The position numbers were made by a program, and so were the translations under genes. DNA of 37,237 bases from Chloroflexota bacterium. Its GTDB lineage: Bacteria; Chloroflexota; Dehalococcoidia; UBA2979. This document shows positions 9,575 through 20,655 of this stretch, in pieces (position 1 is the stretch's first letter; every line of letters begins with the position of its first letter). Below the pieces are notes generated by a model. That model saw nothing but the letters and a program-made list of their open reading frames with translations. It made no database searches and was not told the origin of the DNA. The stretch covers positions 47,406-84,642 of the forward strand of contig VXMU01000123.1 of NCBI GenBank assembly GCA_009840945.1, read 5' to 3'.

Positions 9575-10906
9575 ATGGGCAATCTCCCGCTCGAAGGCGT
9601 GCGTGTCGCCGACATCACCGTGGTGTGGGCGGGCCCGCACGTCACGCAGCTCCTCGGCGAGTGGGGCGCCGAGGTGATCCGCGTCGAGCCCCGGACCCGC
9701 ATCCAGCCCGCGACGCGCGGAGCGGAGCGGAGGCCGCCGACCCCGGACGAGCTCAAGGCGATGGCCGCGCAGGGCGTGACGCTCGCGGGGTTCCCGGACT
9801 TCGTCGGCCGGCCCGACCCGTGGAACCGCGGCGCCTCCTTCAACTCGCACGGCCGCAACAAGCTGAGCATGACCGCCGACATCACCACGCCCGAGGGCCG
9901 CGAGGCGTTCCTCGACCTCATCGAGCACTGCGACGTCGTGGTCGAGAACAACGTGCCTGAGACGATCGAGAAGGCGGGCATCACCTACGACGTGCTGAGC
10001 CAGCGCAACCCGAAGCTGATCATGCTTCGCATGCCGGGGTTCGGCCTGAACGGCGAGTACAAGAACTACCGCGGCTTCGGGCTGCACATGGAGGCCGTGA
10101 TCGGCCACACCCATATCCGCTCCTACCCCGACGACATCATCGAGGCGGCCGGGGACGTAGTGACCAGCGACGCCATCTCGGGCATCCAGGGCGCGTTCGC
10201 TGTCAGCATGGCGCTGCGCCACGTGCGCAAGACCGGCCGCGGGCAGCTGCTGGAGCAGCCCCTCGCCGAGGCGTTCCTGCCGATCATCGGCGAGTTCCTG
10301 CTCGACTACACCGCCAACGGCCGGGACACCGAGCCGCAGGGCAACCGCCACCGCACCCACGCCCCGCACAACTACTACCCCTGCCGCGGCGACGGCGACT
10401 ACATCGCCATCGACTGCGACTCGGACGAGGCGTGGATGGCGATCTGCGAGTTCCTCGGCGCCGACGACCTGCTGGCGAACGAGGAGTGGATGACGGCCGC
10501 CGGACGCTACCGCGACCAGGTCGCGCTTGACCAGGCGCTCGGCGAGCACACTCGCCGGTTCGACCAGCGCGCGCTGTTCTTCGGGCTGCAGGCGGCCGGC
10601 GTCATCGCCGGCCCGGTGCAGAACGAGGCGGCGGCGTACGCCTGCCCGCAGCTCGCCGAGCGCGGGTTCTTCGAGGAGACCGGGAACACCTCGACGGGTA
10701 CGCACCTCTACCCCGGCCTGAACCTGCGGATGGCGAACACCCCGAACCACATCCGCACCGGCCCGCCGCTCCTCGGCGAGCACAACGAGTACGTCTACCG
10801 CGAGGTGATGGGCTACACCGAAGAGCAGTACCGCGCGCTCGAGGAGATCGAGCAGATCGGCTTCGGCTACGCCCCCGGCGTGGCCCCGTTCGCAGAAGAG
10901 CGGTAG
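9575..10906 (+). CDS. Family III (CaiB/BaiF) CoA transferase
   Basis: GVRVADITVVWAGPHVTQLLGEWGAEVIRVEP; catalytic-type Asp in TSDAISGIQGAFAVSMAL; RKTGRGQ. Confidence 0.92.
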   Translation: MGNLPLEGVRVADITVVWAGPHVTQLLGEWGAEVIRVEPRTRIQPATRGAERRPPTPDELKAMAAQGVTLAGFPDFVGRPDPWNRGASFNSHGRNKLSMTADITTPEGREAFLDLIEHCDVVVENNVPETIEKAGITYDVLSQRNPKLIMLRMPGFGLNGEYKNYRGFGLHMEAVIGHTHIRSYPDDIIEAAGDVVTSDAISGIQGAFAVSMALRHVRKTGRGQLLEQPLAEAFLPIIGEFLLDYTANGRDTEPQGNRHRTHAPHNYYPCRGDGDYIAIDCDSDEAWMAICEFLGADDLLANEEWMTAAGRYRDQVALDQALGEHTRRFDQRALFFGLQAAGVIAGPVQNEAAAYACPQLAERGFFEETGNTSTGTHLYPGLNLRMANTPNHIRTGPPLLGEHNEYVYREVMGYTEEQYRALEEIEQIGFGYAPGVAPFAEER

Positions 10907-12106: not shown

Positions 12107-12508
12107 CTACTCCTCGTCTGGCACCCGCGTCGAGTGGTAGACCACCAGCTTGCTCGTGCCGTCGACATCGACCCAGACGCCTGTGAAGTGGGCGTCGAAG
12201 ATGAGCGGGGGGCGGTCATCGTAGTCGATGCGCATGTGGTTGAGGCCGTTCACGATCGTCGTGTTCGGGTACGTCCGCACGCTCATCTGGTCGAAGTCCA
12301 TACGGGCGCTGCTGCGGCGCTCTTTGCGCCTGGCCTCGATGATTTCGTCCCCAGGCTCCACGAGCCCGTTCATGTGGGTGTAGGTGAAGTCCGGCGCCAG
12401 GAGTTCCTCGAGCGCCTCGGGGTCGCCTTTCAGCATCGCAGCGGAGAACTCGAGCATCCGCGCGATCGCTGCTGCCTCGATGTCCGTTTGTTGTCTGGTC
12501 TGAACCAT
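12107..12508 (-). CDS. NTF2-like/SnoaL-like (DUF4440-type) protein
   Basis: 133 aa; LKGDPEALEELLAPDFTYTHMNG... typical NTF2-like; tandem paralog next door. Confidence 0.8.
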   Translation of the reverse strand: MVQTRQQTDIEAAAIARMLEFSAAMLKGDPEALEELLAPDFTYTHMNGLVEPGDEIIEARRKERRSSARMDFDQMSVRTYPNTTIVNGLNHMRIDYDDRPPLIFDAHFTGVWVDVDGTSKLVVYHSTRVPDEE

Positions 12509-12541: not shown

Positions 12542-12940
12542 CTATTCCTCGTCCGGCACCCGCGTCGAGTGGTAGACGACGAGCTTGCTCGCGCCGTCGA
12601 TGTCGACCCATACGCCCGTGAAGTGCGCGTCGAAGGCCAGCGACGGGCGGTCCTCATAGTCGATGCGCATGTGGTTGAGGCCGTTCACGATCGTCGTGCT
12701 CGGGTACGTCCGCACCGCCATGCCCTCGAAGTCCATGCGGTCGTTGTGACGACCGTTGTGCACCGACTCGATCAGCTTGTCGCGAGGCTCCACGAACCCG
12801 CCCATGTGGGTGTACGTGAAGTCCGGCGCCAGCATCTCCTCGAGTGCCGCGGCGTCACCCTTGACCATCGCGCGGGAGAACCTCTGCATGCGCTCGATGG
12901 CTGCTCCCTCGACTTCTGTCATCTGCTCGGACTGGACCAT
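12542..12940 (-). CDS. NTF2-like/SnoaL-like (DUF4440-type) protein
   Basis: 132 aa; shares TTIVNGLNHMRIDY and DAHFTGVWVD.DG.SKLVVYHSTRVPDEE with 12107-12508. Confidence 0.8.
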   Translation of the reverse strand: MVQSEQMTEVEGAAIERMQRFSRAMVKGDAAALEEMLAPDFTYTHMGGFVEPRDKLIESVHNGRHNDRMDFEGMAVRTYPSTTIVNGLNHMRIDYEDRPSLAFDAHFTGVWVDIDGASKLVVYHSTRVPDEE

Positions 12941-14715: not shown

Positions 14716-15276
14716 CTAGCGGAGCTCCGGCGGGAGCCCGCTCTGCGACGCGCCGCCCTTGCCGAGGAGCTGGCGGAGGATGTGGATGTAGCCGAGGTGC
14801 TGGTTGCCGTGCGAGACGACGACCTGCCCCAGCATCGCGCCGCGTGTCAGCTCCAGCATCTGGCCCTCGATGCGCGCGCTCACGCCCTCGGCGAACGACG
14901 CGTCGTCCATCGTCTCGATCTTGGCGACCACGGCCTCCGTGGCGTCGCGGCAGTACCGTTCGAGGCTCTCGACATCCGGGAAGCGCATCCCCTGCACGTC
15001 GGCGAGGTCCATGCCGGTGCCCTGCTCGTTGCGCGGGAAGTCCCACGCCTCCGCCAGGCCCTGCTGCCGCCACACCGGCGGCTCGCGGTGGAAGACGAAC
15101 TGCACGATGTTGTCGGCCGAGCGCAGCACGTGCCACGCGTTGAAGCCGATGGACGTGCTGTCCTCCATGGGGAGGGCGTGCAGCTCGTCGAGCGTCAGGT
15201 CCGTGAGCGAGTGCGTGATCTCGTTGAGCAGCCGCCCGACCATCCGCGAGTACTCGGCTGCCAGCACGTTCGACAT
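14716..15276 (-). CDS. DinB-superfamily protein
   Basis: 186 aa; GFNAWHVLRSADNIVQF and VVSHGNQHLGYIHILRQLLG His-containing helical motifs. Confidence 0.75.
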   Translation of the reverse strand: MSNVLAAEYSRMVGRLLNEITHSLTDLTLDELHALPMEDSTSIGFNAWHVLRSADNIVQFVFHREPPVWRQQGLAEAWDFPRNEQGTGMDLADVQGMRFPDVESLERYCRDATEAVVAKIETMDDASFAEGVSARIEGQMLELTRGAMLGQVVVSHGNQHLGYIHILRQLLGKGGASQSGLPPELR

Positions 15277-15308: not shown

Positions 15309-15959
15309 CTAGTCGCCGTTGAGCTTCGGGACGTTGAGCTGGTCCATGACCCGCTCGAAGACCTCGTACTCCTGCGCGCCGACGACGGCGTAGCGCTCGT
15401 TGAGGATGAACGTCGGCACGCCGGTCACGCCGACGGCCTGCGCCCAGGCGATGCCGTTGTCGACTTGCTGGCGGTAGCGGCCCGTCTGCAGGGCGTCGCG
15501 CAGGTCGTCCACGTCGAGCCCGACGTCGCCACCGATCTGCAGCAGCGTGTCGAGGTCGCCGATGTTGCCGTCCTCCTCGAAGTGGGTGCGGAACAGCGCG
15601 CGGTGGAGTTCATCGCCGTCGTGGCCGAGCTCCTGCGCGTACTCGGCGGTCTCGAGCGAGAGGTGCGAGTTGGGCGTGAAGGTGCGGCCGCGCCGGAAGG
15701 TGATACCCGCCTGCTCGCCACGCAGTTCGAGCGGGGACGGCGGGTCGCCGGGCTTGGTGTAGGGCTCGCGGGTGCGGCCCTCGGGCGGGATCGACGGGTC
15801 GAGCAGGAAGGGCGCCCAGCGGACGTCCACGTCGTACTGCTTGCGGAGCTTCTCGACCTCGACGAGGCCGACATAACACCACGGTCAGATGAAGTCCGAG
15901 ACGATGATGAGCGAGGTGCGCTCTGCTTCGGCGTCGGGGTTGATGGGGTCGGTGGTCAT
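15309..15959 (-). CDS. DsbA family (FrnE-like) thioredoxin-fold oxidoreductase, probable selenoprotein with UPWC active site (Sec at residue 25, TGA at 15885-15887)
   Basis: Reading through one TGA gives MTTDPINPDAEAERTSLIIVSDFI-U-PWCYVGLVEVEKLRKQYDVDVRWAPFLLDPSIPPEG...; exact CPWCY(V/I)G context of FrnE-like proteins; hairpin just downstream of UGA; the ORF track only gives 15309-15830. Confidence 0.8.
15853..15871 (-). promoter_or_regulatory. Candidate bacterial SECIS hairpin
   Basis: On mRNA: UCGGCCUC-GUC-GAGGUCGA, 8-bp stem (one G-U pair), apical GU, apical G 22 nt after the UGA. Confidence 0.65.
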
Positions 15960-16043: not shown

Positions 16044-16970
16044 TCACGGCCCTGAGATCGGCCGGACGTCGACGCTCTCCGCTGCGAGGGCGAACGCCAC
16101 GCCCTCGACGGTGAGGTCGGCGATCTTGGACTGCACGATGCCGATCACGTTGCCGCAGATGTCGATGAGCGGGCCGCCGCTGTTGCCGGGATTCGCCGGC
16201 GCGTCGGTCCGGATGTAGTGCAGGCCATCCTCGACGAACCGCTCCGAGACGACCCCGCGGGTCACGCCCGCCGCGGCCGTGCGGTGACCGAGGCCGTAGC
16301 CGATGACCAGGGTGTCGGAGCCGTACTCGGGCGGGGCGCCCCAGGTCAGTGCGCGGGCGTTGCTGTCGGCGCTCAGCACCGCGAGGTCGCCATCGGCGTT
16401 CGTTCCGATCACCTTCGCGGTGACGTCGAGCGTGGCGTTCGTGAGTTGCACGGTGTCTTCCCCGGACACCACGTGCTCGGCGGTGAGCCAGCGGAAGTTG
16501 CCGACGTAGAAGGCCGTGCCGGCGCGGTCGCCCGCGTGCACCTGGGCGACGCTTGCACTGACCCGCGCGGTGGCCGTTGCGGCGGTGCACTCGGCGAGCG
16601 GCGGGTCCGGGTCGGGCTGCGCGACGCCGTCGCGCCGGGCGATGAGCCGTGTGCCGGCGGGGACGCCGCCCGGGTAGAGCTCGTGGAAGCCCCGGTTGAC
16701 GATGTCCGGGGCGGCGGTGATGAGCGGCACGTAACGGCTCCCGGTCCACGCGTACAGCGCGCGGATGTCCGAGCGGTACGCGCACGACTCCAGCTCCGGA
16801 ACGCTGCCGCCCTCGTACGTCACTGTGAAGAAGCCGTGGCTCAGGGGGCCCTGCAGGCAGGGCGAGGGCGACTGGGCCGCTGTATCGGCCACGCTCGCCA
16901 GGGACACGACGGAGAGGATGGCGAGGGCCGCGACGAGCTTCCGGGCGGCGACCGAGGGTGACGGCTGCAT
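16044..16970 (-). CDS. Secreted trypsin-like (S1C-type) serine protease
   Basis: Signal peptide ARKLVAALAILSVVSLASVADTAAQS; catalytic TAEHVV, DGDLAVL, NPGNSGGP. Confidence 0.85.
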   Translation of the reverse strand: MQPSPSVAARKLVAALAILSVVSLASVADTAAQSPSPCLQGPLSHGFFTVTYEGGSVPELESCAYRSDIRALYAWTGSRYVPLITAAPDIVNRGFHELYPGGVPAGTRLIARRDGVAQPDPDPPLAECTAATATARVSASVAQVHAGDRAGTAFYVGNFRWLTAEHVVSGEDTVQLTNATLDVTAKVIGTNADGDLAVLSADSNARALTWGAPPEYGSDTLVIGYGLGHRTAAAGVTRGVVSERFVEDGLHYIRTDAPANPGNSGGPLIDICGNVIGIVQSKIADLTVEGVAFALAAESVDVRPISGP

Positions 16971-17072
16971 CTCGCGCTTCCCTGCTGCGTCCTGCCTGAG
17001 TTGCGTCCCGGCTGCCGTGGAACGCGACAATCGTACCCGCATGGCGGCGTACCAACGCGCACGCGCGCCCGT

Positions 17073-17078
17073 TATGAT
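17073..17078 (+). promoter_or_regulatory. -10-like TATGAT
   Basis: In divergent region upstream of enoyl-CoA hydratase; no clear -35. Confidence 0.3.
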
Positions 17079-17208
17079 GGGCGCCGTGTGAGGCCCGCCG
17101 CGCGGGGGAGATCGCCTCGAAACACCAACGGCAGGTCCTCGCGCCGCGCCGTCATGGCGCGCCAGCGAGTTGAGCGGAACGCGAACACGCGCGTGAGGAG
17201 TGCCAACA

Positions 17209-18000
17209 GTGGCTGTGCAGACTTTCGAGCTCATCGACTACGAGGTCCGTGACCGGACCGCGTGGATCACCATCAACAACGCCGAGCGGATGAACGCGCT
17301 GAGCATCGGCGTCGTGAACGGCCTGTACGACGCCTTCACGGAGTTCACGAACGACGACGACGCGCTGGTCGCGATCCTCATCGGTGGCGGCGGCCGCGCC
17401 TTCTGTGCGGGCGCTGACCTCGTCGCGATGACGCAGCGCGACCAGACCGAGGGACAGGGCGCGCCCGCTCCCACGCGGCCGGGGCTGGAGGCCGTCTCCG
17501 AGTGCCCGAAGCCGATCATCGCAGCCATCGACGGCTACGCGCTGGCCGGCGGGATGCAGCTTTCGAGCCGCTGCGACATCCGCATCGCGACCGAGAAGTC
17601 GCGGGTGGGCATGCCCGAGGTCCGACGCTCCCTCGTCGCCGTCGGCATGGTCGACACGGCCGAACGGTTCGTGCCGCGCGGCGAGGCGATGTGGATCCTG
17701 CTCACCGCGGACCACATGACCGCCGAGCGCGCCTACGACATCGGGTTCCTGCAGGCGCTGGTGCCCGACCGCGACGCGCTCATCGCCGAGGCGACCCGCG
17801 TCGCCGACGAGATCAAGAAGAACGCGCCGCTGGCGGTGCAGGCGGTCAAGCGGACCATCGTCCACACCAGCCACATGTCGCCGCTGGACGCGATCCACTA
17901 CCGCAACGCTCTCAACGAGAAGGTGGAGCAGAGCGAGGACCGCATGGAGGGCCCCAAGGCCTTCGCCGAGAAGCGCGACCCCGTCTGGAAGATGCGCTAG
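17209..18000 (+). CDS. Enoyl-CoA hydratase/isomerase family protein
   Basis: VAVQTFELIDYEVRDRTAWITINNAERMNALS, GGGGRAFCAGADL, GYALAGGMQLSSRCDIRIAT; GAGGAG RBS (alternative start 17200). Confidence 0.92.
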   Translation: MAVQTFELIDYEVRDRTAWITINNAERMNALSIGVVNGLYDAFTEFTNDDDALVAILIGGGGRAFCAGADLVAMTQRDQTEGQGAPAPTRPGLEAVSECPKPIIAAIDGYALAGGMQLSSRCDIRIATEKSRVGMPEVRRSLVAVGMVDTAERFVPRGEAMWILLTADHMTAERAYDIGFLQALVPDRDALIAEATRVADEIKKNAPLAVQAVKRTIVHTSHMSPLDAIHYRNALNEKVEQSEDRMEGPKAFAEKRDPVWKMR

Positions 18001-18120: not shown

Positions 18121-18180
18121 TGCACGCGTCGTTCGAGCAGGCGAGGAGGCCGCCGGGTGCGGCGGCGTGAGGAGGACGCC

Positions 18181-20655
18181 ATGAGCGGGCCATTCGAGGC
18201 GCTGCGGGTCATCGACCTCAGCAGCGGACAGCCGGGGGGCGTCACCACCATGGTGCTCGCCGACTACGGGGCCGACGTGATCAAGGTGGAGCCTCCCGGC
18301 GGCGACCCCGGCCGCGCCGAGCCCGCCAGCCCGATGTGGCTGCGCGGCAAGCGCAGCGTGACGCTCGACCTCTCCGACGCCGCGGACCGCGGCCGCCTCC
18401 ACGCGCTCGTGCGCGGCGCCGACGTGGTCGTCGCCTCGTTCGCACCGGGCGAGGGCGAGGCCGCCGAGGCCGACTACGAGACGCTCTCGGCGCTCAACCC
18501 CGGCCTCGTCTACTGCTCGATCACGGGCTGGGGCCTGAGCGGCCCGTACGCACACTACCCGGCCAGCGAGCCGCTGGTGGCTGCGAAGTCCGGGCGCATG
18601 CAGTCCTTCGCCGGCGTCGTCCGCCGCGAGGGCCCCGCGTACAGCGCGGTCAAGACGGGCACCCACGCCGCGACGCAGTCGGCGATCGCCGGCATCCTCG
18701 GCGCGCTGCTCGTGCGCGACCGGCTCGGCTCCGGGCAACTCGTGGAGACGAGCGTGCTGCGCGGGATGCTGCCGTACGACTTCCGCACGCTCATCGCCGA
18801 GCAGCTCACGCCGCGCTACCCCTCGCTGCTCGCCGACGACCCGTTCGCGCGGTTCGGCCCGGACGGGCTGCCGATGCTCGGCTACCAGCCGGTGATGACG
18901 AAGGACGGGCGCTGGATCCAGTTCGCGAACCTGCTGGAGCACCTCGTGCACTCCAGCCTGGTGGCGATGGACCTCGCCGCCGACGTGCTCGGCGACCCGC
19001 GCTACGCGGGGACGCCGAACGGGCTCACGCCCGAGGCGCGCGAGGAGGTCCGCAACATCATGCTCGAGCGCGTCCAGGAGCGGACGGCCGCCGAGTGGAT
19101 GGAGGCGTTCAGCGAGAACGGGAACGTCGCCGCCGAGATCGTCGGCACGGCCCAGGAGGCGCTCAGTCACCCGGACATGGAGGCGAACCGCGAGGTCGTC
19201 GACATGGAGCACCCGGAGCACGGCACCGTGCGGCAGCTCGGGCTGCTCGCGCGGCTCACCGAGACGCCGGGCGAGGTCGGCGGCGCCGGCCCGCAGCCCG
19301 GCGAGCACACCACCGAGGTGCTCGCGGAGGCGCCGCGCGCCGCGTGGACGCCGCCCTCGACGAACGGCTCGCCGCCGAAGCACCCGCTTGAGGGTGTGAC
19401 GGTGCTGGAGTTCGCGACGATCATCGCCGCGCCGCTCGGCGCGTCGCTGCTCGGCGACATGGGGGCGCGCGTGATCAAGGTCGAGCCGGTCGACGGCGGC
19501 GACCCGATCCGCGGGCTCGGCGTCGGCCTCGGCGCGATGTTCGGCTCCGCCAAGACCACGGCGTCGAAGGAGAGCATCTGCATCGACCTCAAGTCTGAGC
19601 GCGGGCAGGAGATCGTGAGCAGGCTCATCGAGCACGCCGACGTGATCGTCCACAACTACCGGCCGGGCGTGCCCGACCGCCTGGGCATCGGCTACGAGCA
19701 GGCGAAGGCGATCAAGCCCGACATCGTGTGGGTCAGCGTCAACGGCTACGGCCCCGACGGGCCCGGCGCTCGCCGGCCCTCGGCGCACCCGATCCCGGGT
19801 GCGGTCTGCGGCGGGGCGCTCATGCAGTCCGGCGTGGACTGGCCGCCCAACGGCTACAGCTCGATCGACGACATCCGCGAGGCCTCGCGCTGGTTCTCGC
19901 GCGCGAACGAGGGCAACCCGGACCCGAACACCTCGATGTGCGTCGCCACCACGGCGATGCTCGGCCTCATGGCCCGCCACCAGACGGGCAAGGGCCAGCG
20001 CATCTTCCTCAGCATGCTGGGGGCCAACGGCTACGCGAACGCCGAGGACTTCTTGTCCTACGACGGCAAGGCGGAGCGGCCGACGCTCGACCGCTGGCTG
20101 CACGGCACCAGCGCGCTCAACCGCCTCTACCGCTCGCAGGACGGCTGGGTCTTCCTCGCAGCCGATGACGACGCGTCGTGGGGCGCGCTGGCCGCCGCCA
20201 GCGTGAACGGCATCGGCGCCGACGGGCGCTTCGCGACGGCCGAGGGCCGCCGTGAGCACGACGCCGCGCTGACCGAGGCGCTCGAGGCGATGTTCGCCCT
20301 GCGCGACGCCGACGAGTGGGAGCGCGACCTGATCGCCGCCGGCGTCGGCTGCGTCAACGCCGGCGCCTACGACAGCCCTGGCGCGTTCCTCCTGGAGGAC
20401 GAGCACGCGCAGGCCAACGGACTGCTCACCGACGCGCAGCACGCGCTGTGGGGCGAGTACCGGCGGTGGGGCCCGCCCTCGACGTTCAGCGCGACGCCGG
20501 GCAACCCGCACGCGGGCGTGCTCGCGGGGCAGCACACCGACGAGCTGCTGGCCGAAGCGGGCTACAGCCCGGCCGAGGTCGAGGCGCTGCGCGCCGACAA
20601 CGTCGTGTGGTCCGAGGTGCCGATGGAGCTGCCGGAACCCGTGACCGTCGCGTAG
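18181..20655 (+). CDS. Fused double-domain family III CoA transferase (824 aa from this start)
   Basis: Two CaiB/BaiF N-terminal motifs: MSGPFEALRVIDLSSGQPGGVTTMVLADYGADVIKVEPPGGD and HPLEGVTVLEFATIIAAPLGASLLGDMGARVIKVEPVDGGD. Confidence 0.92.
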   Translation: MSGPFEALRVIDLSSGQPGGVTTMVLADYGADVIKVEPPGGDPGRAEPASPMWLRGKRSVTLDLSDAADRGRLHALVRGADVVVASFAPGEGEAAEADYETLSALNPGLVYCSITGWGLSGPYAHYPASEPLVAAKSGRMQSFAGVVRREGPAYSAVKTGTHAATQSAIAGILGALLVRDRLGSGQLVETSVLRGMLPYDFRTLIAEQLTPRYPSLLADDPFARFGPDGLPMLGYQPVMTKDGRWIQFANLLEHLVHSSLVAMDLAADVLGDPRYAGTPNGLTPEAREEVRNIMLERVQERTAAEWMEAFSENGNVAAEIVGTAQEALSHPDMEANREVVDMEHPEHGTVRQLGLLARLTETPGEVGGAGPQPGEHTTEVLAEAPRAAWTPPSTNGSPPKHPLEGVTVLEFATIIAAPLGASLLGDMGARVIKVEPVDGGDPIRGLGVGLGAMFGSAKTTASKESICIDLKSERGQEIVSRLIEHADVIVHNYRPGVPDRLGIGYEQAKAIKPDIVWVSVNGYGPDGPGARRPSAHPIPGAVCGGALMQSGVDWPPNGYSSIDDIREASRWFSRANEGNPDPNTSMCVATTAMLGLMARHQTGKGQRIFLSMLGANGYANAEDFLSYDGKAERPTLDRWLHGTSALNRLYRSQDGWVFLAADDDASWGALAAASVNGIGADGRFATAEGRREHDAALTEALEAMFALRDADEWERDLIAAGVGCVNAGAYDSPGAFLLEDEHAQANGLLTDAQHALWGEYRRWGPPSTFSATPGNPHAGVLAGQHTDELLAEAGYSPAEVEALRADNVVWSEVPMELPEPVTVA

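Follow-up and report, generated by a model that had tools for sequence, protein, structure and literature searches.

The window, a 37,237-nucleotide stretch of a Chloroflexota genome, carries on its minus strand a gene for a thioredoxin-fold protein whose catalytic motif is interrupted by a TGA codon. Is this gene broken, or does the TGA specify selenocysteine (Sec)? Our answer, held with a probability of about 0.96, is that the gene is predicted to encode a cytoplasmic FrnE/DsbA-type thioredoxin-fold selenoprotein, in which Sec25 would take the nucleophilic position of the CPWC motif and Cys28 would be the resolving residue.

A predicted UPWC frame that gene calling truncates

The sequence-only reading had proposed a 216-aa UPWC protein at this locus, and its coordinates and translation proved exact. 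On the minus strand, positions 15309-15959 translate as MTTDPINPDAEAERTSLIIVSDFI*PWCYVGLVEVEKLRKQYDVDVRW... up to a TAG codon. The sole internal TGA is residue 25 (15887..15885), at the position of the first Cys of CPWC and in the context ...VSDFI-U-PWCYVG..., and 216 codons precede the TAG when the TGA is read as Sec. The features of the locus are as follows.

15312..15959, minus strand: predicted FrnE/DsbA-type selenoprotein coding sequence, 216 aa with TGA as Sec (frame translation, PF01323, AlphaFold2 model)
15309-15311, minus strand: TAG stop codon of the selenoprotein gene (frame translation)
15885..15887, minus strand: in-frame TGA, Sec25, first position of UPWC (TGA in 65/65 TGA homologs examined, a Cys codon in 49/49 others)
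15876..15887, minus strand: active-site motif U25-P26-W27-C28 (columns 22, 25, 26 and 28 invariant in a 38-sequence alignment with U shown as C)
15853..15871, minus strand: bacterial SECIS-like hairpin, 8-bp stem, loop GUC (pairing kept in TGA genes; longer fold z -3.16)
15414..15416, minus strand: Pro182, at the cis-Pro position of thioredoxin-fold oxidoreductases, in TGVPT (invariant column P182)
14716..15276, minus strand: downstream neighbour, DinB_2 family protein (PF12867, E 5.4e-10)
16044..17234, minus strand: upstream neighbour, trypsin-like protease, ending ahead of the selenoprotein gene (PF13365, E 2.8e-19)

As the sequence-only reading had also stated, the ORF list starts this gene at a GTG at 15830 (173 aa), so the first beta strand and the active site are missing from the called ORF. 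A GC3 screen for TGA codons bridging two coding-like stretches, run on both strands of the window, returned the Sec25 site and one ordinary gene end only, and GC3 on either side of each TGA revealed no further Sec gene in the window.

The selenoprotein gene and the DinB_2 gene lie on the same strand and are possibly co-transcribed. A conserved operon with the DinB gene was considered and rejected, as, of the loci with flanking DNA, only that of the nearest species shows the two genes side by side. Elsewhere in the window, two adjacent minus-strand genes (12107-12508 and 12542-12940) encode closely similar proteins of 132-133 aa, a tandem duplication whose first member matches DUF4440/SnoaL-like proteins. 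On the plus strand, an 832-aa ORF (18157-20655) appears by eye to comprise two tandem CoA-transferase family III (CaiB/BaiF-like) modules; it adjoins an enoyl-CoA hydratase gene (17200-18000), and a CoA transferase-like ORF lies farther away (9575-10906).

Conservation of the TGA and of the hairpin that follows it

Using a six-frame search (E <= 1e-20) of 393 genomes of the same class, we found homologs in 137, and 106 of those 137 carry a form with exactly one TGA. We then mapped 114 loci codon by codon with tblastn, including the window's own copy. At the Sec25 codon, TGA occurs in 65, TGC in 34, TGT in 15, and no other codon is seen, bearing out the expectation that homologs would have Cys where the window has TGA (49/49 non-TGA homologs). 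Homologs with TGA at this same codon come from independent assemblies and reach down to ~30% identity. The homologs returned by a plasmid search all fall below 60% identity. Four genomes (G070, G206, G348 and G358) hold two FrnE-type copies; in G070 and G358 one copy is the Sec form and the other the Cys form, showing that the two kinds of paralog can coexist.

The nearest relative, from 'Chloroflexi bacterium SB0666_bin_12' of the same genus (loci L026 and L055, which are the same), is 94% identical. Between the two, the 24 codons upstream of the TGA differ by 3 synonymous and 0 non-synonymous changes, and the next 59 codons after it by 11 synonymous and 2 non-synonymous changes. Synonymous changes thus prevail on both sides of the TGA, and their pattern upstream indicates that the DNA before the apparent stop is under protein-coding constraint. 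These comparisons bear on two less favored accounts. The first holds that the locus is a pseudogene, an ordinary Cys FrnE with a nonsense mutation, or the product of a sequencing or assembly error, and it would fit the 173-aa fragment without an active site that standard ORF calling yields. Independent assemblies share the TGA, which rules out a sequencing error in the window genome, and the same TGA in 65 homologs refutes the account more generally. Close relatives keep the TGA and show none of the further disruption expected of a decaying gene, the codons upstream are under purifying selection, and the TGA co-distributes with the Sec machinery (below). We regard this account as having almost no chance of being correct.

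The second account is that the real product is shorter, beginning at GTG 15830 or ending at the UGA, with read-through a minor, regulatory event. The 173-aa ORF does possess a start codon, and Sec insertion competes with termination in known systems. Yet the short ORF would lack the first strand and the entire active site, and purifying selection on the 24 upstream codons and invariance of UPWC columns 25, 26 and 28 count against it. A shorter product is very improbable, if by a hair less so than a pseudogene or error. The full-length selenoprotein remains the preferred reading.

The sequence-only reading had placed a SECIS-like hairpin after the TGA, and one is present. Bacterial SECIS elements are stem-loops that closely follow the UGA and whose apical loop begins with a G. 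Numbered from the U of UGA, nt 17-24 pair here with 28-35 around a loop of three bases, the first of which is a conserved G; the hairpin starts 16 nt after the UGA, inside the coding sequence, and a 45-nt fold has a predicted energy of -19.7 kcal/mol (z = -3.16). Both the placement and the apical G fit the bacterial SECIS pattern given in the legend to Figure 3 of PMC1088965. Stem cells are paired at 95% in 63 distinct TGA sequences, versus 70% in 25 Cys genes of the same class and 51% in Cys genes from other phyla, and nt 25 is G in 61/63 TGA sequences versus 11/25 class Cys genes. Compensatory changes in the stem are few: six sequences have U-A in place of C-G at pair 21-31, and twelve have G-C in place of C-G at pair 24-28. 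Because conserved codons run through the upper part of the hairpin, selection on the protein accounts for some of the stem conservation; conservation by itself is therefore weak evidence, and the contrast with the Cys genes, in which the hairpin is not kept, is the informative part. An Rfam scan of the gene matched no SECIS model, which is expected as bacterial SECIS elements are gene-specific. We consider this SECIS-type stem-loop, with a G opening its apical loop, a putative SelB site.

A FrnE-type fold in a genome equipped for Sec

The protein matches the Pfam DSBA family (PF01323, E 2.3e-31, residues 17-204), and its AlphaFold2 model has a mean pLDDT of 94.3. Deinococcus radiodurans FrnE is the closest solved structure both by sequence (E 1.2e-27, ~33% identity) and by fold (TM 0.77-0.82). 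On the strength of PF01323 and these best PDB matches, we assign the protein to the FrnE subfamily of DsbA (COG2761, cd03024), as it combines a DSBA thioredoxin domain with FrnE-type sequence. We take COG2761 to be the FrnE COG. All 38 aligned homologs share residues D22, C/U25, P26, C28, P58, P182 and G194, and columns 25 and 28 with P182 supply the CXXC (here UXXC) active site and the cis-Pro of the subfamily; Pro182 is presumed to be cis, as in the family.

Like D. radiodurans FrnE (DR_0659; PDB 5CNW, 5CO3, 5CP1, 5XWH; PMC8945050), the window protein has its CPWC-type motif at the same place and is of the cytoplasmic type without a signal peptide, with no N-terminal hydrophobic signal seen on inspection. 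It differs in having Sec for the first Cys and in lacking the C-terminal CXXXXC (239-244) needed for regeneration of the D. radiodurans enzyme: besides Sec25, C28 is the only Cys in the 216 aa, and 38 of the 40 TGA relatives tallied likewise have a single Cys. The CXXXXC motif is not strictly defining of FrnE, being found in many but not all members and absent from the S. roseofulvus and D. maricopensis proteins (PMC8945050).

No NCBIfam equivalog was found for the protein. The best match, to the Rcas_1661 family thioredoxin-like (seleno)lipoproteins (NF041057), reaches 46 bits, far under the 190-bit cut-off, and spans residues 93-207 only. That family has known Sec members and its model is the domain given for the DsbG-like protein (PMC13188914), whereas the window protein has no lipoprotein signal on inspection. 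The DsbA-type thioredoxin fold with a helical insert is also shared with 2-hydroxychromene-2-carboxylate isomerase and kappa GST (PDB 2IMD, 3FZ5, 3RPP; TM ~0.7), but identity in the structural match is only 13-18%. These last proteins are presumably not dithiol UxxC/CxxC oxidoreductases.

The window genome (2.53 Mb, 92.5% complete) encodes all four components sought: SelA (E 4.5e-129), SelB (E 2.5e-88), SelD (E 3.4e-109) and tRNA-Sec (73.7 bits), the last with a UCA anticodon by ARAGORN. The selD gene, on the window's contig but outside the window (G000:C79:11233-12165, L022), has one in-frame TGA (...SCGGUAGKLG...) and is a selenoprotein gene too. Of the genomes of the class, 91/106 with a TGA form and 10/30 with only Cys forms have SelA (Fisher p 5.6e-8, relatedness ignored). 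SelB above cut-off or SelD was found in 14 of the 15 TGA genomes without SelA; the fifteenth, G375, which is 75% complete, yielded no Sec gene. None of SelA, SelB above cut-off and SelD turned up in the 12 close relatives with only a Cys form, a group that includes several single-contig genomes. Within the nearest clade, Sec genes (one or more) occur in every TGA row and in no Cys genome. Two genomes, G267 and G279, keep the TGA form of FrnE beside a SelD match without an internal TGA, apparently a non-Sec SelD, which suggests that SelD and FrnE switch independently.

The frame is open whichever residue the TGA encodes, and so UGA might instead be read as Trp or Cys through a variant code or a suppressor. 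UGA is, however, the ordinary stop of the neighbouring protease gene (16044-16046), the genome has a UCA-anticodon tRNA-Sec together with a full Sec pathway, and the TGA always alternates with Cys codons. Such a reassignment is therefore scarcely credible. Sec insertion, as the sequence-only reading had proposed, is favored by the Cys/TGA alternation, the TGA-restricted hairpin, the four Sec components and the undisrupted relatives.

The conserved UGA, hairpin, machinery and fold are read directly from sequence; the steps that would join them follow known relatives. SelB and Sec-tRNA(Sec) would decode the UGA, guided by the hairpin 16 nt downstream within the coding sequence. By analogy with the family, the selenolate of Sec25 would attack a substrate disulfide, Cys28 would act as the resolving residue, via a transient Sec25-Cys28 selenenylsulfide, and, given that the protein has no counterpart of the regenerating CXXXXC of D. 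radiodurans FrnE, a general cellular reductant would restore the active enzyme. Comparison with FrnE makes disulfide reduction or isomerisation under oxidative stress the likely role.

Repeated exchange of Sec and Cys

DsbA-like UxxC selenoproteins of COG2761 have been known since 2005, and the window gene is a new, unannotated case. The new Sargasso Sea selenoproteins of Zhang et al. 2005 include a 'DsbA-like protein, COG2761, UXXC' with 9 sequences (PMC1088965), and the GOS study of 2008 listed 'DsbA 1', pfam01323, UxxC, with 63 sequences (PMC2398784). In a 2016 survey 41 organisms had DsbA-like selenoproteins, and 'DsbA-like protein form 1', PF01323, is among the entries of a review from 2026 (PMC13188914). 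These share the Pfam family and the UxxC motif with the window protein, which may belong to the same subgroup as the published form 1 members (AACY01178397, NIP15863.1), the match being by COG2761/PF01323 and UxxC only. The window gene belongs to a Chloroflexota lineage, and the present set covers a whole class; neither Chloroflexi nor FrnE appears by name in the main text of PMC1088965, PMC2398784 or PMC13188914. Searching the literature for FrnE with selenoprotein, or selenoprotein with SAR202, found nothing relevant, and the connection is the COG2761 of the 2005 paper.

A maximum-likelihood tree of 114 sequences, in which U was coded as C, requires at least 15 changes of the Sec/Cys label; well-supported branches force 11 of them. 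The nearest 51-row clade has five changes, in each of which a Cys lineage is nested among Sec rows on well-supported branches, and by parsimony the direction within this clade would be loss of Sec. In 5/5 independent pairs the Cys partner has lost the Sec machinery; with five pairs, the lowest p that a sign test can give is 0.0625. A comparison over 90 class rows, judged by SelA only, has in a typical pairing ~6 of 10 pairs that agree with this direction and 0.1 that oppose it (median p 0.03). We lean towards the view that FrnE-type DsbA is, in this class, a widely held and probably old selenoprotein that has repeatedly reverted to Cys, each time with loss of the Sec machinery.

If true, this would be an exception to the view that prokaryotic Sec-to-Cys replacement is rare and mainly affects FdhA and SelD (PMC13188914); the present switches would be a modest addition. 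What is added here is the distribution across a class and, within one clade, five well-supported switches between Sec and Cys, each of which coincides with loss of the Sec machinery. Standard gene calling shortens the protein and drops its active site, with the result that in whole lineages what is very probably a selenoenzyme is taken for a broken redox enzyme. Close relatives that differ both in the form they carry, Sec or Cys, and in having or lacking the Sec machinery provide a natural series for the contribution of Sec to a DsbA-type enzyme and for the route by which Sec is lost. Comparison of the two forms is practical, since a structure has been solved for FrnE-type enzymes and they can be assayed simply.
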